The notes under the pieces are model-generated. The model worked only from the letters and a program-made list of their open reading frames with translations, ran no database searches and was not told where the DNA came from. A stretch of DNA of 64,000 nt from Bacteroidales bacterium (GTDB taxonomy: Bacteria; Bacteroidota; Bacteroidia; Bacteroidales; F082): assembly GCA_021647205.1 (NCBI GenBank), contig JAKIVD010000018.1:1-64000 (forward strand), given 5' to 3'. A program made the translations under genes and the position numbers. Each line of letters opens with the position of its first letter. The stretch's first letter is position 1. Below are positions 43,827 to 55,760 of this stretch, one piece after another.

Positions 43827-44039
43827 TCAGCAACAACTACTTGACTGTTGAATCGAAGGACAGGGTACACTGCCAAAGGAGCAGTAAACACAACAATCGC
43901 CCGGATTTGGCTTCAGGACAGTCTGACATTTTTCGCATTCGTAAAAAAATTGACATGAGTCTGTCGGCATGGTTTCTTCTTTTTGATGACCGCAGTTTGG
44001 ACAGGTGATGACTGATTGGAGAATGATTGAGTCTTTCAT
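43827..44039 (-). CDS. GDCCxC-domain protein
   Basis: A 70-residue Cys-rich protein: CPNCG near residue 14, a second YECEKC near 35-42, then PGDCCVYCSFGSVPCP and a final CC. The GDCCVxC motif names a family often beside mercury or arsenic resistance genes and ArsR-type regulators in Bacteroidota. I start at the ATG at 44039; the open frame runs on to 44120 with no good signal. A broken ArsR-like gene lies just upstream (44260-44415). No mercury transporter is present, so its partner genes may have been lost. Confidence 0.85.
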   Translation of the reverse strand: MKDSIILQSVITCPNCGHQKEETMPTDSCQFFYECEKCQTVLKPNPGDCCVYCSFGSVPCPSIQQSSSCC

Positions 44040-44206
44040 TTTTACATATTTATTGGTGAAGGTTTGTTGTGATTCGTTGCTTTTCAACTTTGTAACTCGT
44101 TGCATCAATAGCTTTAACAATGATATCCACCGATGTTTTCATGGCTCTAATTGTTAAGTTTCCCCAACCTTCCAGTTTCCACGAGACCAGCGTTGTTTTG
44201 AAAGTA

Positions 44207-45414: not shown

Positions 45415-45804
45415 TTAAAGGTTGTTCATTACCTTTTGCAGTTTTGCCCTGATCTCGGTGGCGACACTGCCCAGGCCGCTGTTCTCAACAGCCATCATGG
45501 AGGCCACGGGATCAACGGCAGCAATGGCTACCTCGTCTTCCGAGCGCTGCTGCACAATAACGTTACAGGGGAGCATGGTACCGATATTTTCTTCCTCCAT
45601 CAATGCCTTGTGGGCAAAAGGCGGGTTGCAGGCACCCAGTATCCTGTAATTCCTGAAATCAACATCCAGCTTCTTTTTTAAAGTGGCCTTTACATCAATT
45701 TCTGTCAAAATGCCGAAACCTTCTTTTTGAAGTTCTTCGGTTACTTTTTCGATGGCTTCATCAAAGCTGACTCCGGTCATCGTTTTTTGAAAATAATATT
45801 TCAT
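45415..45804 (-). CDS. DUF302 protein, cytosolic form
   Basis: A 129-residue protein made of one DUF302 domain with no signal peptide. Family marks include FGILTEIDVKATLKKKLD, YRILGACNPPFAHKAL and MLPCNVIVQQ. DUF302 has no established activity; it is frequent near sulfur and metal genes, and the Cys in GACNP and LPCNV are conserved in both copies here. It lies 32 bases after its exported paralogue and shares its promoter. Confidence 0.87.
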   Translation of the reverse strand: MKYYFQKTMTGVSFDEAIEKVTEELQKEGFGILTEIDVKATLKKKLDVDFRNYRILGACNPPFAHKALMEEENIGTMLPCNVIVQQRSEDEVAIAAVDPVASMMAVENSGLGSVATEIRAKLQKVMNNL

Positions 45805-45836: not shown

Positions 45837-46301
45837 TTAAAGCTTTTCGAGCGCAAGCCTGAATTTTTCAGTGACTTTCGCTGCGACTTCATTCAACTCC
45901 TCGTTTCCAAGTGTACTCATTAAAGCGGAAGGGTTGACCATCACGACTTCCACCTGGCCCTTGCCCTGGTCTTTTACAAGCACCTTGCAAGGCAGGAACA
46001 AACCGATGTTTTCTTCAAGTTGTATGGTCTGGTAGGCATAGCCCGGATTACAAACCCCAAGAATTTTGTAGGGCCGTAAATCCACATCCGTCAGTTTTTC
46101 TTTCAGTTTGGCATCCATGTCAATTTCTGTGATGACACCAAAACCTACTTCCTTAAGTACCGATTTGGTTCTTGCAGTAACTTCTTCAAAGGTTCCGTTC
46201 AGGGTTTTGCTGAAATAATACTTTTGTTGCTCTTGCTGCGCTGTAATTGATTGTACTGCAAACATTACAGCCAGGAATAAAACGATTTTTATTTTCATCA
46301 T
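45837..46301 (-). CDS. DUF302 protein, exported form
   Basis: A 154-residue protein: signal peptide (MMKIKIVLFLAV to SITAQ) and a DUF302 domain (about 30-154) that aligns with the gene just downstream (FGVITEIDMDAKLKEKL, YKILGVCNPGYAYQTI, LPCKVLV). The frame extends to 46367 but that would overlap the promoter, so I use the ATG at 46301 (the next, 46298, is equally possible). The pair gives the same domain in the cytosol and in the periplasm. A Fur-type palindrome lies upstream at 46352-46366. Confidence 0.86.
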   Translation of the reverse strand: MMKIKIVLFLAVMFAVQSITAQQEQQKYYFSKTLNGTFEEVTARTKSVLKEVGFGVITEIDMDAKLKEKLTDVDLRPYKILGVCNPGYAYQTIQLEENIGLFLPCKVLVKDQGKGQVEVVMVNPSALMSTLGNEELNEVAAKVTEKFRLALEKL

Positions 46302-46330: not shown

Positions 46331-46366
46331 CAAAAGTAAAGCAGAATAGTATGCAACCCGGTTGCA
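46331..46366 (-). promoter_or_regulatory. Zinc-type promoter with 15-bp palindrome (DUF302 pair)
   Basis: A perfect -7 box TACTTTTG (46331-46338, minus) lies 13 bp from the palindrome TGCAACCCGGTTGCA (46352-46366), which therefore covers the -33 region. Matching sites lie at 48498-48532 and 55271-55305. Binding by the Fur-family protein is inferred. Confidence 0.72.
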
Positions 46367-46393
46367 ATCATACTGTGCTGACTGTTTTTAACA

Positions 46394-48478
46394 CTATTTA
46401 GCATTTAGCACCCGTGTGGCATTCAGGATGGCGATCAATGCCACGCCCATGTCGCCAAACACGGCTTCCCACATGGTGGCAATACCAAAAATGCCAAGGA
46501 TGATAAACAGGGCTTTCACCACCAGGGCAAAAATAATGTTCTGCCACACAATTTTCCGGGTCCATTTCGACACGTCGATGGCTTCGACAACCTTGGAAGG
46601 GGAGTCGGTCATCAGCACCACATCGGCGGTTTCGATGGCTGCATCGGAGCCGAGGGCGCCCATGGCAATGCCCACATCGGCACGGGCCAAAACGGGCGCA
46701 TCGTTGATGCCGTCGCCTACAAAAGCTACTTTCCCGTTTTTGTTCAAAAGGCGTTCAATGTGCTCCACTTTGTTTTCGGGGAGGAGGCCGGCATAAAAGG
46801 ATTCAATCTCCAGTTTTTTGGCGATGGCAGCCGCCGCAAATTCGTTGTCGCCGGTGAGCATTACAGTATGGATGCCCTTTTTGTGCAATTGGTCAACCGC
46901 ATCAATGGCATCAATTTTTAAGCTGTCGGCAATAACCACGTAACCCGCATATTTCCTGTCGACAACCAGGTGAACCACCGTGCCATCCACATCACATTTT
47001 TCGTGGGCAATGTTTTCTTTGTGAAGCAGTTTGTCGTTGCCGGCAAATATTTCTTTTCCATCAACAATGGCCCTGACACCGTGTCCTGAAATTTCCCCCA
47101 CTTCCCCAATCCGTTCCGGGTCAATTTCCGGCTGATGGCTTTCTAAGATTGACTTGGCAATGGGATGGTTCGAATTGTATTCGGCATACGCCGCATATTC
47201 AAGAATTGTTTTCTCCCCAAAACCATTGACCGTAACAATTTCTGTAACCTTGAATTCACCTTTGGTCAGGGTGCCGGTTTTGTCAAAGACCACAGTTTTT
47301 ACCTGTGTAAGTGCATCCAGAAAGTTGGAACCTTTTACCAGAATTCCCTTACGGGAAGCCCCGCCAATGCCACCGAAATAGCCAAGCGGGATGCTGATGA
47401 CCAGCGCACAGGGACAGGAAATGACCAGTACAACGAGCGCCCGGTAAATCCAGTCGCTGAAGGTTGCGCCTTCGATAAAAAGAGGTGGCAGCACTGCAAT
47501 CAACAGCGAGCCGAAAACCACAAAGGGGGTGTAATATTTGGCGAAGGTAGTGATGAACTTTTCGGTTTCGGCTTTTTTGGCCGTTGCATTCTCCACCATT
47601 TCAAGAATTTTTGAGATGGAAGATTCACCGAAAGGTTTGCTAACCCGCAAGGTGATCAATCCCGATTGGTTGATCATCCCTGCCAGCACCTCATCATCTG
47701 CCCCTACTTTACGCGGCACACTTTCACCTGTCAGGGCCGATGTATCAACAAAGGAGCTGCCTTCGGTAAGGATGCCGTCCAACGGAATTTTTTCACCGGC
47801 TTTTACAACGATGATATCGCCAATTTTCACCTCTTCCGGGGAAACTTTTTTCAAAGCGCCACCAACTTTCAGGTTGGCATAATCGGGTTTGATTTCGAGC
47901 AGCGATTTAATGGACCTGCGCGAACGGTTGACGGCAACATCCTGGAACAGTTCGCCCACAATATAAAACAACATCACCGCAACCGCTTCGGGCATTTGAT
48001 GAATGGCAAAAGCACCCAGGGTGGCGATGGTCATTAAAAAATGTTCGTTGAAAACCTGCCCCCTGATGATGTTTTTTATCGCCATCCTGATTACGCCCCA
48101 ACCCGAAACCAGGTAAGCGGTTACGAAAACCAGGTATTCGGCAATGTGGTTGGTGGTGTTGTGCAGTTCGTCTTCAAAAATAATTCCGGCAAGCAGCAAA
48201 ACAAGCCCTGTCAACACTTTAATGATGGTCCATTTGTTTTCGGCAAAAATGCTTAACGGCGCTTCCGTTGTTTCTTTGCCGGCCATTTCCACTTCCACCC
48301 CGGGTTCCACTTCCCGGATTTTCTGTTTCACCTTTTCGAAGTCGTCCGCCTCGATGCTCATGGAAGCCGTCGCAAAATTGACGCTAACAAATTTGACCCC
48401 CTCCAGTTTCGACAGGCCGTCTTCAACTTTGGCGGCACACGTGGCGCAACTCAGGTTTTTTAGTTTGTATTTTTCCAT
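46394..48478 (-). CDS. Zn/Cd-type P1B ATPase
   Basis: A 694-residue metal-exporting ATPase with one N-terminal HMA domain (about 1-70, LSCATCAAKVEDGL). Core motifs are CPCALVISIPLGYFGG, DKTGTLTKG, HPIAKS and [16 protein letters not shown]. The CPCALVISIP form and following SRKGILVKG match the Zn/Cd/Pb group (ZntA/CadA), not copper. It pumps ions from cytosol to periplasm, where the RND pump of 48959-54717 could take over. It has its own promoter with the 15-bp palindrome. Confidence 0.93.
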   Translation of the reverse strand: MEKYKLKNLSCATCAAKVEDGLSKLEGVKFVSVNFATASMSIEADDFEKVKQKIREVEPGVEVEMAGKETTEAPLSIFAENKWTIIKVLTGLVLLLAGIIFEDELHNTTNHIAEYLVFVTAYLVSGWGVIRMAIKNIIRGQVFNEHFLMTIATLGAFAIHQMPEAVAVMLFYIVGELFQDVAVNRSRRSIKSLLEIKPDYANLKVGGALKKVSPEEVKIGDIIVVKAGEKIPLDGILTEGSSFVDTSALTGESVPRKVGADDEVLAGMINQSGLITLRVSKPFGESSISKILEMVENATAKKAETEKFITTFAKYYTPFVVFGSLLIAVLPPLFIEGATFSDWIYRALVVLVISCPCALVISIPLGYFGGIGGASRKGILVKGSNFLDALTQVKTVVFDKTGTLTKGEFKVTEIVTVNGFGEKTILEYAAYAEYNSNHPIAKSILESHQPEIDPERIGEVGEISGHGVRAIVDGKEIFAGNDKLLHKENIAHEKCDVDGTVVHLVVDRKYAGYVVIADSLKIDAIDAVDQLHKKGIHTVMLTGDNEFAAAAIAKKLEIESFYAGLLPENKVEHIERLLNKNGKVAFVGDGINDAPVLARADVGIAMGALGSDAAIETADVVLMTDSPSKVVEAIDVSKWTRKIVWQNIIFALVVKALFIILGIFGIATMWEAVFGDMGVALIAILNATRVLNAK

Positions 48479-48497
48479 GGTTAATGTGCATTTATTA

Positions 48498-48532
48498 CAA
48501 AAGTAGTTGATAAGCAGTGCAACCGGGTTGCA
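48498..48532 (-). promoter_or_regulatory. Zinc-type promoter with 15-bp palindrome (P-type ATPase)
   Basis: The -7 box TACTTTTG (48498-48505, minus) lies 12 bp from the palindrome TGCAACCGGGTTGCA (48518-48532). The ATG of the ATPase follows the -7 box by 19 bases. Confidence 0.72.
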
Positions 48533-48614
48533 AAGTTGAGCAGGATGAACACATCATTCAAAATTTGGTGGCGCGGTATTGGGATTTAAAATCCCGACCT
48601 TTCAGGCAATGGAT

Positions 48615-48947
48615 TTAAAACCCGTTTTTCAGCCCGGTTTTTACACGAAACGCTTTTTCAACATCGGAAACATAAATAATACCGTCACCGGGATGGTCGG
48701 TTTTTCCGTATTCGGAGATGATGCCAACGATGGTGTCCACTTCCTTTTTTCTGACTACCATTTCGAGTTTGCTAATCTCGCTGTCGGTGATGGAAAACTT
48801 GCGTGAAACAAAGGCTTTGCTTTCATCCTCATATTTTCCGGTTCCTTCTGCATCAGAAATAGTGATGTGTTCGAACCCTGCATCCTTCAGGTGGTGAATA
48901 ATTTCGTTTACTTTATTGGGCCGCACAAAGGCTTTTATTTCTTTCAT
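48615..48947 (-). CDS. PII-like protein of the zinc pump operon
   Basis: A 110-residue PII-fold protein: EIKAFVRPNKVNEII at the start and GDGIIYVSDVEKAFRVKTG at the C-terminal signature. The T-loop differs from GlnB and has no Tyr uridylylation site; it carries no Cys. It fits PII-NG proteins that sit beside cation efflux systems. It lies 11 bases after czcB, the last gene of the CzcA-CzcB operon, so it may tune the pump. Confidence 0.85.
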   Translation of the reverse strand: MKEIKAFVRPNKVNEIIHHLKDAGFEHITISDAEGTGKYEDESKAFVSRKFSITDSEISKLEMVVRKKEVDTIVGIISEYGKTDHPGDGIIYVSDVEKAFRVKTGLKNGF

Positions 48948-48958
48948 AATGCTTTCCT

Positions 48959-50278
48959 TTAATGTTTGTGTTCGGTTTCTTCCTTATTCATATCGGCCAG
49001 CAGGTAGTAGGCTGCATTTAGCACAACCAGCGTATTTTTGGGCAAGGGGTTAATCAGTTTGACTTCTGTATAACCACCGTCCTTTCTTCCGGTCATGATT
49101 TCCACCATCCGGAAAGCCATTAATTCACTGCTTTCTGTTTCGTGTTCGTCATGTTTTTCAACAGCATCGTGCCCGTGACCGTCGTGCTCTTCTGCAGTAG
49201 CCTCATGGCCGTGCTCCTCATGGCTTTCCGCTGCCTCATGGTTGTGCTCCCCATGGCCATCATCAGCTTCATGATTATCCAGCGCAGTCTCATCCACTAT
49301 AAAAATGAACGACTTCGTCCCTTCATTTACAATGGCATCGTTGGGCAGGGTGCGGGTGTATGTTTCGTCGGTATGCAAATGGCCGGTGATGTACATGCCG
49401 GGGATGAGGCCGGGGGCCTTGCTGTCGATATTTGCGTGAATGTGCACCGCACGTGTATTGGGCTCAAACTCTTTGCCAATGGCAAAAATAGTGGCGGTCA
49501 ATTCAAGGCCGGGTAGGCTGGAAACCGTAAAATGGATTCGCTGTCCATCTTTCAGCAGGTAAACGTCTTTTTCGTAAACCATAAAATCGGCATGGATGGC
49601 GCTGTTGTCGGTAATTTCAAACAGCTTGTTTTTGGCATCAGCAAAACTGCCAATTTTTACATTGATTTTATTTACAAATCCACTGATGGGAGCGTAAATA
49701 CTGACGGTATTCGAAATGCTTCCTTTCTTCACTTTTTCCGGGGAAAGATCGAGCAACAACAAGCGCGATTTCAAGCCTTCGTACCTTGCCATTGATGTAT
49801 TGTATTCGGCTTTGGCCTGCTGGTAATCTCTTCCCGAACCGACGTTGTTCTCAAACAACTCCTTTTGTCGTTCGTAGTTTTTTTCTAAATACTCCAATTG
49901 GCTGGCCACCACGGCGAAGTCTTCCTGCAGGGCAATATAATCAGGGTGTTCAAGCACAGCCAGCAATTGTCCCTTTTTGACTTTGTCGCCCAAAAACACC
50001 TTGATGCTTTTCACATTTCCGCCAATGGCTACCGTAACATCGGCACGACCGGTGGGCGGTACTTCCAATTGGCCGTTGGTTTTTACAACGGTGGTGAGGT
50101 TGCGCATTTGAAACGGGCCCGTTTTCAGGTTCAGCGACTGGCGCTGGGGTTCATTTAAAACGACCACACCCTCCGGGCCATGTTCCTCGTGCGCTTCTTC
50201 TTTTTGACTGTTGTTTTCAGTGTTGCACGATATCAGCGATACCAGTACAAATATTGATAAGATAATTTTTGTTTTCAT
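48959..50278 (-). CDS. czcB: CzcB-type RND adaptor, His-rich
   Basis: A 439-residue lipoprotein adaptor (lipobox LISC, Cys about 19). The core (about 55-340) has the paired lipoyl halves (VKSIKVFLGDKVKKGQLLAV and YAPISGFVNKINVKIGS), a coiled-coil hairpin between them, and a beta-barrel. A long His/Glu-rich segment at about 345-400 (DGHGEHNHEAAES, EEHDGHGHDAVEKHDEHE) would collect zinc-like ions. It links the CzcA half of the fusion pump to its channel half. Confidence 0.92.
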   Translation of the reverse strand: MKTKIILSIFVLVSLISCNTENNSQKEEAHEEHGPEGVVVLNEPQRQSLNLKTGPFQMRNLTTVVKTNGQLEVPPTGRADVTVAIGGNVKSIKVFLGDKVKKGQLLAVLEHPDYIALQEDFAVVASQLEYLEKNYERQKELFENNVGSGRDYQQAKAEYNTSMARYEGLKSRLLLLDLSPEKVKKGSISNTVSIYAPISGFVNKINVKIGSFADAKNKLFEITDNSAIHADFMVYEKDVYLLKDGQRIHFTVSSLPGLELTATIFAIGKEFEPNTRAVHIHANIDSKAPGLIPGMYITGHLHTDETYTRTLPNDAIVNEGTKSFIFIVDETALDNHEADDGHGEHNHEAAESHEEHGHEATAEEHDGHGHDAVEKHDEHETESSELMAFRMVEIMTGRKDGGYTEVKLINPLPKNTLVVLNAAYYLLADMNKEETEHKH

Positions 50279-50376
50279 TATTATTTTTTTTTTTGACTCT
50301 ATTGGAATAAAACAAATCCTTTTAATCTCGACTCTTCCGGGTCCACCCGACGCGGACTTTGGGAGGTCTCGATTCG

Positions 50377-53300
50377 TTATTGACCACTTAAATATTTCAA
50401 TTGTGCCGACAGTTCAAAATAATCTGCCTGCTGTATTAAATATTCCTGTATGGTAGCGATGGCGGCTTCCATGTTTTGAATAAATTGTATATAGTCGATG
50501 CTGCCGAGGCGATAGGCCAGATTGGCGGCATCCATTTGTTCCTTTGCCAGTGGCAAAGCCTCTTCATTGTAATAATCAAGCACCTCCTGCAGGGCGATGT
50601 AACGGCTCAGGCGTTCGTTGTAGGCGGCATTGAGTTCCAATTGCTTTTGCAAATAGGTTTGCCCGGCAATTTCATAATTAAGCCGGGCTGCTTTGGCGTT
50701 TCCTGATTGTTTGTTGAATATCAGCGGAAGTGAAATTCCGGCCTGCCAACTGTGAAATCCCGACTGCCCGTCGACCGATTGCAAAGCATACGACAAATCG
50801 ACTTTGGGCAGGAATTTTGCTTTCTGGTTTTTCCATCGCGATTCGGCAATCAACGACTGCGTGGCATAAAAATTCATTAGTGGACTTGTTGAAAGAGAAT
50901 CGTCAGGCACAGCGATTTGATAGGTCATCGGCCCGAATTCTTCATCAGCAATATCAAAATCCGACGGAAACAGCAGGTACTGATTCAATAGCTGCAAGGA
51001 TGCCTGGTAATTGCTTTCGGCAGTCCGCTTGTTGACCAGTAACTGTTTGTACTTTGCTGTGGCCGATAAATACTCGATTTTAGAAGTTTGCTGGGTTTGG
51101 TAACGTAGCTCAGCGGCATGTTGAAAATCGGCGTACAGACTGTCGAGTTGTTGGTACAGCACCCATTGGTTTTTGGCATAAAGCGCCCGTGTCCAGGCGA
51201 TACTGACATCACGAATTAACGCATTCAGTGTGAGTTCCTGTTTGACCATGGCCAGGTCTTTTCGCCTTTCGGCCAGCTTATTTTTTGCCGGAACGGCGAA
51301 AATATCAATGTTATTTTGGGAAAAACCGATTTTATTCTGAATACCGGGCAAGCCATTTCCCACCTCCTCTTTTCCTGTAAAAACTGATGTTCTGCCAAAA
51401 TCCCAGGCTGTTGTCTTCAGGGCATGTTGCCGGTCGTATTCCAGTTGTGCGGCTTTCAAAGAAGGATAGTTTTCTTTGGCCCTTTCGATAGCCAATGGCA
51501 GGGTGAAGGTGGTATCTTGTGCCTGCATGTTTCCGGAAAAACCCAGCCCTGCAAAAATCAACACCACGCTAACAACCACCGGGTTCAGGATGCGTTTTCG
51601 GGGCAGGCGTTTTGCTGTTTCAACCCATTTGTATAAAATCGGCAATACAATCAGGGTGAGCAGGGTGGAAGTGAGCATTCCACCGATAACCACTGTTGCC
51701 AGGGGTTGTTGCACTTCGGCACCTGCCGAAGTGGATACGGCCATGGGTAAAAACCCGAGGATATCGGTAGAAGCCGTTAACAATATCGGGCGGATACGCC
51801 GGATGGATGCTTTTCTGATGATTTCATCAATCTGGTATTTGCCCTCGGCTTTTAGTTCGTTGAAGCCGCTGACAAGGACCAGACCATTCAAAACGGCCAC
51901 ACCAAACAGCACGATAAAGCCCACCCCTGCCGAGATGCTAAAGGGCATATCGCGCAGGTAGAGCGAGAATATCCCGCCAACGGCGGCAAAGGGGATGGCA
52001 ATATAAATCATCAAGGTTTGCTTGAAGGATTTGACGGCGAAAAATACCAGCATAAAAATCAGGGCCAGTGCCAGGGGAACTACCAGGCTCAATCGTTTGG
52101 TAGCCCTTTCAAGGTTTTCGAAAGCCCCGCCGTAGCGAATGTAATATCCCGGTGGCAATTCCAGTTTTTTATCCAGTATTTTCTGGATGTCGTGCACCAG
52201 CGATTTGATGTCGCGGTCTTCTACATTAATGCCAACATAAGTCCGCCGGTTGGTATTGTCGCGGCTGATTTGCATGGGGCCGGGCTGGTAACTGATGTCG
52301 GCCACTTCTTTCAGTGGTACCTGGTTGCCATCCGGCAGATCAACATACAAATTCCGAATGTCGTCAATACTTGTGCGGTGTTTTTCATCCAGGCGTACCA
52401 CCAGGTCGAACATCCGCTCACCTTCATAAATACTACCAGCCACACCCCCGCTAAAAGCAGTTTCGACAAGGGTGTTGAGTTCAGTAATATTCAGGCCATA
52501 GCGGCCGAGTTTGTTGCGGTCGTAATGCACAGTAATTTGTGGCAGACCCCGTGTGGCCTCTGCTTTTACCCCGGCCACCCCTTCAACACCGGCCACCAGT
52601 TTGGCAATTTCGGCAGCTTTGTCGGCCAACACATCCAGGTCGTCGCCGTACAATTTGATGGCCACATCTTCACGGATACCGGTCAGCAACTCATTAAAAC
52701 GCATTTCGATGGGCTGGGTAAATTCAAAATTGATGCCCGGCAAAACAGTAACCATTTCCTTCACCTTCTCCACCAATTCGGCTTTGGAGGAAACTTTTGT
52801 CCACTGTTCCTGTGGTTTCAAAATAACAAAAATATCAGCAATATCAAGGGGCATGGGGTCGGTGGGTAAATCGGCCACGCCAATCCGGCTTTGAATGGAT
52901 TCAATTTCATCGGGAAAGTTCCCGATGATAATTTGTTCCAGGCGGGTAGACGCTTTTTTCACTTCGCTGAGCGAGGTACCCGGTTTCAGAAAGGCCTGGA
53001 AAGCAAAATCCCCTTCATCGAGTTGTGGCATAAATTCGGCGCCCATGCGCGAGAATAAAAATCCACCGGCAAGTAATAAAATCAAGGCAATGCCCACAAT
53101 CAGGCGGCCTTTGTGAAGGGCCCAGTCAATAACAGGGGAATAAATATTCTCAAGTTTCCGGATAATTTTATCGCCCCACGACATTTTATCGTTTTTGGGC
53201 GGTTGAAGAAAAGTAGCGGCCATCATGGGAATGTAGGTCAAACAAAGAACTACTACCCCCAAAACAGCAAAACCAAAGGTCATGGCCATGGGCTTAAACA

Positions 53301-54717
53301 TCTTGCCTTCGACACCCTGCAAAGCCATCACCGGAATGAAAACAATAAGAATGATGAGTTGTCCGAAGAAGGCCGCATTCATCATCTTGCTGGCTGATTT
53401 ATAAGCCAGTTCATTTCTTTTGCTGGCCGGGAGCTTGGTGCCGAGCAGTTTTTTCCGGTGCAGGTAAAAAATCATGCTTTCCACAATAATGACTGCCCCG
53501 TCAACGAGTATCCCGAAATCGAGTGCCCCCAAACTCATCAGGTTGGCCCACACGCCGAAAATATGCATCATGATAAAAGCAAACAACAGTGCAAGCGGGA
53601 TGGTTGAAGCTACTATCAGTCCCCCGCGCAGGTTACCGAGGAAAAACACCAATACAAAAATAACGATCAGCGCCCCGATACCGAGGTTTTCGGCAACGGT
53701 TGAAGTGGTACTTCTGATAAGTTTACTGCGGTCGAGAAAGGGCTTGATTTGTACACCCTCAGGTAAAGATTTCTGAATCAAAGCGACCCTTTCTTTCACC
53801 GCTTTGATGACATCATTTGAATTTTCTCCCTTCAGCATCATCACAATACCACCGACGGCTTCACCCTTTCCGTTTTTAGTAAAAGCGCCGTAACGCACAA
53901 AACTGCCAAACTTCACCTCTGCCACATCCCTGATAAAAACCGGCTGCCCGTCGATATTGGCAACCAGTGTGTTATTGATGTCATCCGTTGAACGCATCAA
54001 ACCTTCGCCCCGGATAAAATTGGCCTGGAAGTTTTTTTCGATATAAGCGCCTCCGGTGTTTTGGTTGTTCGATTCGAGGGCATCAAAAATATCAGAGATG
54101 GTCAGCCCCATGCTTCTTAGTTTATCCGGGTTTACTGCCACTTCGTATTGCTTGCCCCTGCCACCAAAGGAGTTTACCTCCACCACACCCGGCAGCATGG
54201 CCATTTGCCGCTTGACAATCCATTCCTGCATGGTACGCAGTTCCATGTCGTCGTAAATGCTGTCGTAACCGGGCTGAACTTCGAGGGTGTACTGGTAAAT
54301 CTCACCCAGACCGGTACTGATGGGGGCCATAAATGGTTCGCCAAAACCTTCCGGTATTTTGTCTTTTACTTCGGCCAGGGCCTCGCTCACCAGTTGCCGC
54401 GGAAGGTAAGTACCCGCATCATCTTTAAAAACGATGGTAACCACAGAAAGGCCAAAACGCGAAACGCTCCGTATTTCCGTCACATCGGGCAGGTTGGCAA
54501 CGGCCAGTTCCACCTGGTAGGTAACAAATTGCTCGATGTCTTCCGTTCCCAGGTTGGGCGCCGTGGTAATCACCAAAACCTGGTTGTTGGTGATGTCGGG
54601 GACAGCATCGAGCGGTACTTTGGTCATGGAATAAAACCCGCCGATAATCAGGCCGATGGTTAGCAGCCAGATGAGGGCCTTATTTTTTATTGAGAAGGAT
54701 ATAATACTGTTAATCAT
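50377..54717 (-). CDS. czcA: CzcA RND pump fused to a TolC-like channel
   Basis: A 1446-residue fusion. Residues 1 to about 1035 are a heavy-metal RND transporter (DAVPDITNNQVLV near 40, GILVDGAVIIVES near 405, a second helix set near 880-1030). Residues about 1055-1446 are a TolC-type outer-membrane channel domain, beginning with a signal-like stretch (VVVSVVLIFAGLGFSGNMQAQ) then LPLAIERAKENYPSLKAAQLE. That inner stretch suggests either a processed junction or translocation of a joined protein. Such fusions are known in Bacteroidota. With czcB it forms a complete Zn/Cd/Co-type pump. Confidence 0.92.
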   Translation of the reverse strand: MINSIISFSIKNKALIWLLTIGLIIGGFYSMTKVPLDAVPDITNNQVLVITTAPNLGTEDIEQFVTYQVELAVANLPDVTEIRSVSRFGLSVVTIVFKDDAGTYLPRQLVSEALAEVKDKIPEGFGEPFMAPISTGLGEIYQYTLEVQPGYDSIYDDMELRTMQEWIVKRQMAMLPGVVEVNSFGGRGKQYEVAVNPDKLRSMGLTISDIFDALESNNQNTGGAYIEKNFQANFIRGEGLMRSTDDINNTLVANIDGQPVFIRDVAEVKFGSFVRYGAFTKNGKGEAVGGIVMMLKGENSNDVIKAVKERVALIQKSLPEGVQIKPFLDRSKLIRSTTSTVAENLGIGALIVIFVLVFFLGNLRGGLIVASTIPLALLFAFIMMHIFGVWANLMSLGALDFGILVDGAVIIVESMIFYLHRKKLLGTKLPASKRNELAYKSASKMMNAAFFGQLIILIVFIPVMALQGVEGKMFKPMAMTFGFAVLGVVVLCLTYIPMMAATFLQPPKNDKMSWGDKIIRKLENIYSPVIDWALHKGRLIVGIALILLLAGGFLFSRMGAEFMPQLDEGDFAFQAFLKPGTSLSEVKKASTRLEQIIIGNFPDEIESIQSRIGVADLPTDPMPLDIADIFVILKPQEQWTKVSSKAELVEKVKEMVTVLPGINFEFTQPIEMRFNELLTGIREDVAIKLYGDDLDVLADKAAEIAKLVAGVEGVAGVKAEATRGLPQITVHYDRNKLGRYGLNITELNTLVETAFSGGVAGSIYEGERMFDLVVRLDEKHRTSIDDIRNLYVDLPDGNQVPLKEVADISYQPGPMQISRDNTNRRTYVGINVEDRDIKSLVHDIQKILDKKLELPPGYYIRYGGAFENLERATKRLSLVVPLALALIFMLVFFAVKSFKQTLMIYIAIPFAAVGGIFSLYLRDMPFSISAGVGFIVLFGVAVLNGLVLVSGFNELKAEGKYQIDEIIRKASIRRIRPILLTASTDILGFLPMAVSTSAGAEVQQPLATVVIGGMLTSTLLTLIVLPILYKWVETAKRLPRKRILNPVVVSVVLIFAGLGFSGNMQAQDTTFTLPLAIERAKENYPSLKAAQLEYDRQHALKTTAWDFGRTSVFTGKEEVGNGLPGIQNKIGFSQNNIDIFAVPAKNKLAERRKDLAMVKQELTLNALIRDVSIAWTRALYAKNQWVLYQQLDSLYADFQHAAELRYQTQQTSKIEYLSATAKYKQLLVNKRTAESNYQASLQLLNQYLLFPSDFDIADEEFGPMTYQIAVPDDSLSTSPLMNFYATQSLIAESRWKNQKAKFLPKVDLSYALQSVDGQSGFHSWQAGISLPLIFNKQSGNAKAARLNYEIAGQTYLQKQLELNAAYNERLSRYIALQEVLDYYNEEALPLAKEQMDAANLAYRLGSIDYIQFIQNMEAAIATIQEYLIQQADYFELSAQLKYLSGQ

Positions 54718-54849
54718 ATCTTTGATTTAATTGCAAATAACTTTGTTGAATTGTCATGTCGACGGGAAGGGTTTCCCTAAAAAATATACTTGTACACCAT
54801 CTCCGGCAGCCAAAAACTGCAGCAGAAAAAGAAATGTAAACAAGTTAAG

Positions 54850-55251
54850 TTAGGCCTGAAACGGTGAGCCGCGGGTGGGGGAATTTTTCAGAAAAACCTT
54901 TTCAGGAGGATGTTGTTCTCTATGGGAAATAGGTATTCCTGAAAAAGAATTTTCAGCCAGCGAAAGTTGCAAATCACTTTCAAGAATAAAGGCCGAAAAA
55001 TTATACGAAATAGAAATATTGCTAATCGAAACTCCTGTAGTAACAATTACCAAATCGTTAAAAGCATGACAATGGGCAGGTATGTTTTCCGGTGGTTCAT
55101 CAGTATGGTTTTCCTGTTGATGGTGCCCGAAAACAGAATCAAAATGATGGTGGTGCGGGGTTATCCCATGCGCAAAAAACATCAGGCCAGTGAGCCAGAT
55201 AAAAAGCAATTGGATCTTATTTGTTCTTTTTTGCATTGCGAATGATTCCAT
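54850..55251 (-). CDS. Small His-rich exported protein
   Basis: A 133-residue protein with an N-terminal hydrophobic helix (about 13-30) followed by TPHHHHFDSVFGHHQQENH, likely metal ligands, then a beta-rich part and a Pro-rich end. No family is sure; short proteins of this kind often start RND metal-pump operons in Bacteroidota. It lies 132 bases before the CzcA fusion and directly after the zinc-type promoter. Either ATG 55251 or 55236 may be the start. Confidence 0.65.
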   Translation of the reverse strand: MESFAMQKRTNKIQLLFIWLTGLMFFAHGITPHHHHFDSVFGHHQQENHTDEPPENIPAHCHAFNDLVIVTTGVSISNISISYNFSAFILESDLQLSLAENSFSGIPISHREQHPPEKVFLKNSPTRGSPFQA

Positions 55252-55270
55252 CAATTTTGAAACTCAGTGG

Positions 55271-55305
55271 CAAAAATAAACATTAAGTAATGCAACCGGG
55301 TTGCA
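55271..55305 (-). promoter_or_regulatory. Zinc-type promoter with 15-bp palindrome (RND operon)
   Basis: The -7 box TATTTTTG (55271-55278, minus) lies 12 bp from the palindrome TGCAACCGGGTTGCA (55291-55305). It stands between the Fur-family gene and the pump operon. Confidence 0.74.
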
Positions 55306-55349: not shown

Positions 55350-55760
55350 TTATTCGCAATTCGCACAAATCCCCTGCACTACCATGTTCACACTTTCCAG
55401 CGAAAAATCTTTGGGCAGGCTGATGGATGGCACGGGAATTTCGTGCAGGCAGTAGGTCTTGTTGCATTTTGTGCAATGAAAATGTACATGAAGGTCTTCG
55501 ACTTCGCAGGAACATTTTTCGAGGCACAGCGCATATTTTACGGGGCCGGAACCGTCATCAATGCTGTGGATGAGTTTTCGTTCCTCAAAAGTTTTTAATG
55601 TACGGTACAGCGTTGCTTTGTCGGCTTTCTCAAACCTCTTTTCGAGTTCCGGCAAACTGATGGCAGTTTCTTCTTCGGTAAGTACCTCCAACACCAGCTC
55701 GCGCATGGCGGTGGGTTTGATGTTTCTTTTAATAAGTTGCCGGTCGTTGCTCTTTTTCAT
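55350..55760 (-). CDS. Fur-family metal regulator
   Basis: A 136-residue Fur-superfamily repressor. Residues about 10-85 are the winged-helix DNA-binding part (ISLPELEKRFEKADKATLYRTL). The C-terminal half has HVHFHCTKCNKTYCL and GICANCE, giving the two CxxC pairs of the structural zinc site, and His-rich regulatory ligands. Its place beside a zinc-type efflux operon suggests a Zur-like sensor that acts on the three palindromes at 46352, 48518 and 55291. Zur acting on efflux genes is known in Xanthomonas and Streptomyces. Metal and direction of control are inferred. Confidence 0.9.
   Translation of the reverse strand: MKKSNDRQLIKRNIKPTAMRELVLEVLTEEETAISLPELEKRFEKADKATLYRTLKTFEERKLIHSIDDGSGPVKYALCLEKCSCEVEDLHVHFHCTKCNKTYCLHEIPVPSISLPKDFSLESVNMVVQGICANCE

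Follow-up and report, generated by a model that had tools for sequence, protein, structure and literature searches.

Activation of efflux or storage genes by zinc-loaded Zur proteins and replacement of the -35 element by an activator site both have precedents. In Caulobacter crescentus, Zur activates the czrCBA-zntA operon when zinc is present, as demonstrated by site mutagenesis (PMC4176598), and in Streptomyces coelicolor the zinc-loaded Zur activates the exporter gene zitB (PMC5472717). SynZur of Synechococcus WH8102 activates bmtA from a box overlapping the -10/-35 core elements, an activation that according to its authors follows no precedent and whose mechanism is unexplained (PMC9337993). 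At the pho promoters, the activator PhoB compensates for a missing -35 element (PMC4496699). Here we describe a 64,000-nucleotide stretch of a Bacteroidales genome (the window; positions 1 to 64,000 of contig JAKIVD010000018.1, GenBank assembly GCA_021647205.1), in which one palindrome, TGCAAC-NNN-GTTGCA, precedes three predicted metal-efflux promoters and adjoins a gene of the Fur family. The palindrome occupies the position of the -33 promoter element, and its arrangement suggests that a metal-loaded activator may substitute for that element.

An earlier note on this DNA, made from the letters alone, had listed three exact palindromes, each 12-13 bp from a TAnnTTTG box, and no fourth perfect copy in the window. 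Our search of the window returned the same three, and the whole 3.53-Mb assembly (98.5% complete) contained no further copy. All three lie inside one 9-kb efflux cluster and face minus-strand genes, and their distances from the box were 13, 12 and 12 bp:

46352-46366, minus strand: operator 1, TGCAACCGGGTTGCA as read toward the DUF302 genes; exact palindrome, one of three in the genome
46331-46338, minus strand: predicted -7 box TACTTTTG of the DUF302 promoter, 13 bp from operator 1; pattern match
48518-48532, minus strand: operator 2, TGCAACCCGGTTGCA; exact palindrome, one of three in the genome
48498-48505, minus strand: predicted -7 box TACTTTTG of the P-type ATPase promoter, 12 bp from operator 2; pattern match
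55291-55305, minus strand: operator 3, TGCAACCCGGTTGCA; exact palindrome, one of three in the genome
55271-55278, minus strand: predicted -7 box TATTTTTG of the RND operon promoter, 12 bp from operator 3; pattern match

A third-order Markov model predicts 0.005 copies of the palindrome for the window and 0.27 for the whole genome. The chance probability of a TAnnTTTG box at the observed distance from all three was approximately 1e-9. The number of two-mismatch matches in the window equaled the chance number, and therefore the weight rests on the perfect copies only; the genome as a whole held 27 two-mismatch sites. A two-mismatch relative, TTGAAACTCAGTGGCAA at 55257-55273, reaches into the -7 box of the RND promoter; it lies 33 bp from site 3 and is possibly a weak second site. 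The genome-wide scan that the earlier note had called for thus returned no copy unrelated to metal genes.

We then quantified how often the palindrome and the regulator occur together in 295 genomes of the same order as the window genome. A Fur homolog was found at E<=1e-5 in 112 of them and at least one palindrome in 100. Overall, these genomes held 168 palindromes, against 12 matches to the reversed pattern, a control whose CpG-bearing words make it an unfair null; we also used Markov and shuffled models, along with a shifted-spacing pattern. The palindrome was present in 65 of the 90 genomes with a homolog at E<=1e-12 and in 35 of the 205 without (odds ratio 12.6, p=9e-20). The palindromes that we read in homolog-less genomes lay nearly all within coding sequence and without a box, and are background. 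Many of the efflux sites had been collected by their nearness to a fur gene; a scan for the palindrome, a 12-13 bp gap and TAnnTTTG that made no use of that gene is free of this bias. It gave 62 matches in 43 of the 295 genomes, and the homolog was present in 42 of these 43 (p=2e-19). When the box was moved by 3 bp, 5 matches were left, at least some of which were upstream members of tandem Zur-type sites. Chance origin of the three sites in the window is ruled out by their uniqueness in the genome, the Markov expectation and this shifted-spacing scan.

Several matches remote from a fur gene precede what we take to be, from reading the sequences, CDF exporters, P-type ATPases, SO_0444-like permeases and an RND/adaptor operon. 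We recognised no nickel-specific gene at any of the sites. Because of the co-occurrence, the adjacency and these trans sites in relatives, the palindrome is almost certainly the operator of the neighbouring Fur-family protein, the two forming a predicted pair. Two proposals of the earlier note, that one operator is common to the three metal-efflux promoters and that the neighbouring protein is its likely ligand, gain support on the same grounds. The only other Fur-family gene of the window genome is flanked by rel/spoT-like and purA genes and has no linkage to metal genes, and for that reason its product was disfavoured as the ligand. Some efflux-type sites stand in other company. Methyltransferase genes (approximately 200 amino acids) follow directly behind such a site, away from known metal genes, at loci L335 and L336, and TonB-dependent receptors share the geometry at L258, L261, L265, L267 and L338, some in operons with HMA/CDF-like proteins. 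Genome G565 holds 13 palindromes, many with a TTT/AAA centre, spread over many small contigs, perhaps because an element is repeated there or the Zur regulon has been enlarged.

The distance between palindrome and box separated two classes of promoters. Among 171 distinct palindromes, with the position of the box given relative to the palindrome start, TAnnTTTG stood mainly at -6 (overlapping), at +27/+28, and at +30 to +34 (where the palindrome is the upstream member of a tandem); other positions were near background. For the +27/28 class, the Pfam families of the 54 downstream proteins included P-ATPase (10), RND (8), OEP (3), CDF (2), DUF302 (2) and Metal_resist (2). By contrast, the 43 proteins of the overlap/tandem class included MerC (7), FUR (7), TonB plug (6), CobW (2), ZIP (1) and PTPS (1), and this class looks like a zinc-starvation (Zur) regulon. 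The same palindrome is thus the apparent Zur box of Bacteroidota, at zur, TonB receptor, CobW, ZIP and MerC genes. At the uptake genes it often overlaps the -7 box, and several positions are in use. When the palindromes were sorted by the clade of the neighbouring Fur-family gene (see below), the box stood at +27/28 for 86 of the 96 beside efflux-clade genes and for none of the 26 beside Zur-clade genes (p=1e-18). The same geometry occurs in Bacteroides salyersiae, B. cutis, Prolixibacter, Robiginitalea, Polaribacter and Carboxylicivirga, among others. A Bacteroides finegoldii plasmid has an efflux-type site upstream of a gene annotated as a heavy-metal P-type ATPase; among three further plasmids that we read, the site was absent from two and had two mismatches in the third. 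At Zur-type promoters the palindromes often come in pairs, with 37-38 bp between their starts (L026, L102, L108 and L205). In one family of loci (L008-L012), a Zur-like and an SCO-like gene share a single palindrome with a divergent gene for a MerC-domain protein, an arrangement that suggests MerC-domain proteins as zinc importers.

In a flavobacterium, the TAnnTTTG box covers -12 to -5 (PMC9723704), and a TTTG is present near -33 in promoters of B. fragilis, according to a work cited in PMC7366714. At a spacing of 12-13 bp, the palindrome therefore reaches from approximately -39 to -25, and its dyad falls at -32/-33. A TTG peak, N19-20 ahead of the box, was seen across 92 other promoters from the same set of loci. 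Only two of 44 efflux promoters had a TTG at N18-21, and the half-site TTGs of the operators fall at N14/15 and N25/26. On these counts the operator of the predicted promoters stands in place of the -33 element, rather than overlapping one. The flank is directional: the upstream TT is approximately 90% conserved, and A at the downstream mirror position is avoided (2/44). The earlier note had held that a bound protein would block the -33 element. The palindrome does lie on that position; blocking is less well supported because the TTG is missing and a single register is used, against the several positions of Zur-type repressor sites. A MerR-like spacer mechanism was judged unlikely, the upstream TTTG being 6 bp too far away, and an AACTTT direct repeat, 22 bp apart, was confined to part of the set and set aside.

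The gene beside the third site, as the earlier note had also observed, is a member of the Fur family:

55350-55760, minus strand: Fur-family regulator of the efflux clade, 136 amino acids, likely operator ligand (PF01475, clade tree, AF2 Fur fold)

It precedes the RND operon in the same orientation, with its 3' end approximately 45 bp from site 3. The protein scored 44.6 bits against PF01475 (cut-off 23.1), and its AlphaFold2 (AF2) model (predicted local distance difference test score, pLDDT, 87.9) has a winged-helix plus dimerisation-domain fold, with Fur, PerR and Zur structures as the best Foldseek matches. Against the NCBIfam Zur equivalog NF008646, a model of the enterobacterial type, it reached 21.5 bits (cut-off 167). 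The structural CxxC...CxxC site (C96, C99, C132 and C135) is kept in 98-100% of 59 efflux-clade members, and H65, C79, H91, H93 and C104 are invariant there. We presume from their placement that these five include the Zur inter-domain ligands, a Cys taking the place of Glu at one of the positions. Both the efflux clade and the Zur clade have the Cys4 structural site together with H65, H91, H93 and C104; C79 is kept in 73% of the Zur clade, and the efflux clade has extra cysteines at C83 (79%) and C85 (86%). In a tree of 83 Fur-family rows, with few columns and moderate deep support, the uptake-associated proteins formed one group and the efflux-associated proteins the rest. The window protein falls among the latter and does not group with the phylum's uptake-associated Zur proteins. 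The efflux group also took in two rows that the box rule had assigned to uptake; these have a one-mismatch box at +27. Judged from these sequences, the efflux-associated Fur clade of Bacteroidota is distinct from the uptake-associated Zur clade. The targets in the window are likewise not uptake genes; they are the P-type ATPase, the RND operon and the DUF302 genes. In the open-licence papers searched we found no description of the clade, its motif or a Bacteroidota Zur box.

From the computed operator, its register, the missing -33 element, the co-occurrence with the clade and the mostly efflux targets, we infer binding by the Fur-family protein, the metal sensed and the sign of regulation. 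Excess metal of the zinc/cadmium type would load the protein at its Zur-like site, and the loaded protein would bind the operator as a dimer, with a constant 12-13 bp between operator and -7 box. The bound dimer would then recruit RNA polymerase to a promoter without a -33 signal of its own, as PhoB does at promoters lacking a -35 element; we propose, by analogy with PhoB, a contact between the efflux-clade protein and sigma. As an explanation of the whole, a metal-loaded activator that substitutes for -33 is the best available and reasonably probable. Activation as the sign has a somewhat better than even chance on its own account, and is favoured because of the fixed register, the missing -33 element, the directional flank and the kept, presumably Zur-like metal ligands. 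A fixed contact of an activator with the polymerase needs a set register, and Zur-type repressor sites vary in position. In the Fur family, metal usually raises DNA affinity; with efflux genes as targets, the protein should therefore activate. The geometry, rather than activation itself, is where the sites agree with a PhoB-type site replacing a missing -35/-33 element. The chances are about even that a Zur-related clade of the Fur superfamily, working through the Zur operator, became the efflux regulator of Bacteroidota and also spreads with efflux genes on plasmids, and that a shift of the operator from -7 to -33 made a repressor site an obligatory activator site.

Several points weigh against activation at the -33 position. 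The Zur activator sites of Caulobacter and Streptomyces lie upstream of -35, not on it. A few efflux-type sites precede genes other than exporters, namely TonB receptors, a ZIP protein and methyltransferases. The -7 boxes are pattern matches and not mapped start sites, and the sites and promoters of related operons are not independent samples. In B. thetaiotaomicron, the regulator/cadmium-ATPase pair BT2511-12 rises 2.2-9.6-fold with the chelator dipyridyl (PMC10434189). The pair may be an ortholog, and the rise fits derepression, ambiguously, since dipyridyl disturbs several metals. Such derepression is what one would expect if the efflux-clade protein covered the -33 region and excluded RNA polymerase until excess metal or another signal released it, as in ArsR. 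A dimer on the dyad would indeed cover the sigma-4 region, and the related Zur clade is repressor-like by the position of its sites. Yet a repressor needs neither the fixed register nor the loss of the -33 TTG nor the directional flank, all of which are seen, and Zur-type sites within the phylum occur at varying positions. Metal would moreover have to weaken DNA binding, the opposite of the usual Zur, though the presumed ligand residues are kept. We regard repression as possible but doubtful.

The boxes at -6 could also point to a promoter switch, in which the protein represses an upstream promoter with that box while activating the +27/28 promoter or leaving it open. A -6 box accompanies 33 of the 96 efflux-clade palindromes, about a third, but this frequency is approximately the one given by the conserved AACTT flank alone, and none of the three window sites has such a box, which makes a switch improbable. 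That an unrelated regulator binds the palindrome, with the Fur-family gene merely adjoining, is harder still to credit. Co-occurrence does differ from binding, and no homolog was detected in genome G230, which has the pattern. Nevertheless, the homolog accompanies the pattern in every other pattern-bearing genome, the same half-sites precede the zur genes themselves, and the pair of site and Fur gene is found on a plasmid as well. A metal-loaded activator in place of the -33 element remains the reading that we prefer.

The other genes of the cluster are as follows:

54850-55251, minus strand: small His-rich protein, weakly DUF6769-like (below the Pfam cut-off), first gene of the RND operon
50377-54717, minus strand: CusA/CzcA family RND permease with a C-terminal outer-membrane efflux (OEP) domain (TIGR00914, PF02321)
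48959-50278, minus strand: RND periplasmic adaptor (TIGR01730, over cut-off)
48615-48947, minus strand: P-II-like protein of the RND operon (PF00543)
46394-48478, minus strand: cadmium/zinc-type P1B ATPase, ZntA-type (TIGR01512 and TIGR01525, over cut-off)
45837-46301, minus strand: DUF302 protein a, first gene behind operator 1 (PF03625)
45415-45804, minus strand: DUF302 protein b (PF03625)

The CzcA-type permease and the OEP/TolC-like domain are fused in a single frame of 1446 amino acids, and long frames alike occur in related loci. The RND operon ends with the P-II-like gene, as do many related efflux loci. A member of the GDCCVxC-domain (seleno)protein family lies near the cluster (43827-44120), with relatives in related efflux loci (e.g. 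L111, L114 and L124).

For the question of how Zur-type proteins activate, dozens of promoters are available here that share one invariant geometry. Alongside stand promoters of repressor type in which identical half-sites are placed differently, so that the idea that position decides the sign is directly testable. If the activator reading is right, it predicts a zinc/cadmium-type efflux regulon for Bacteroidota, including gut Bacteroides, and an operator usable for metal-inducible tools.

In its predicted zinc-dependent activation of efflux genes by a Fur-family protein, the locus resembles Caulobacter. There, one Zur serves uptake and efflux from a site upstream of -35; here a separate clade with other half-sites has its dyad on the -33 position. 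At zitB of S. coelicolor, the Zur box lies 8 nt upstream of -35 and oligomers spread upstream, in contrast to the single palindrome in place of -33. SynZur differs in that its target is a metallothionein and its canonical inter-domain sensory site is absent, whereas the likely sensory residues are kept here. PhoB belongs to an unrelated protein family, and the likeness is that of an activator site where the -35/-33 element is missing. The earlier note had compared the palindrome with the Nur site, which proved a loose comparison; the nearest operator use that we found is the phylum's own Zur-type regulon. It shares the TGCAAC-N3-GTTGCA half-sites and has related Fur-family proteins, but those form a separate clade at uptake genes with overlapping boxes or tandem sites, whereas the sites described here serve efflux genes with the box at +27/28.
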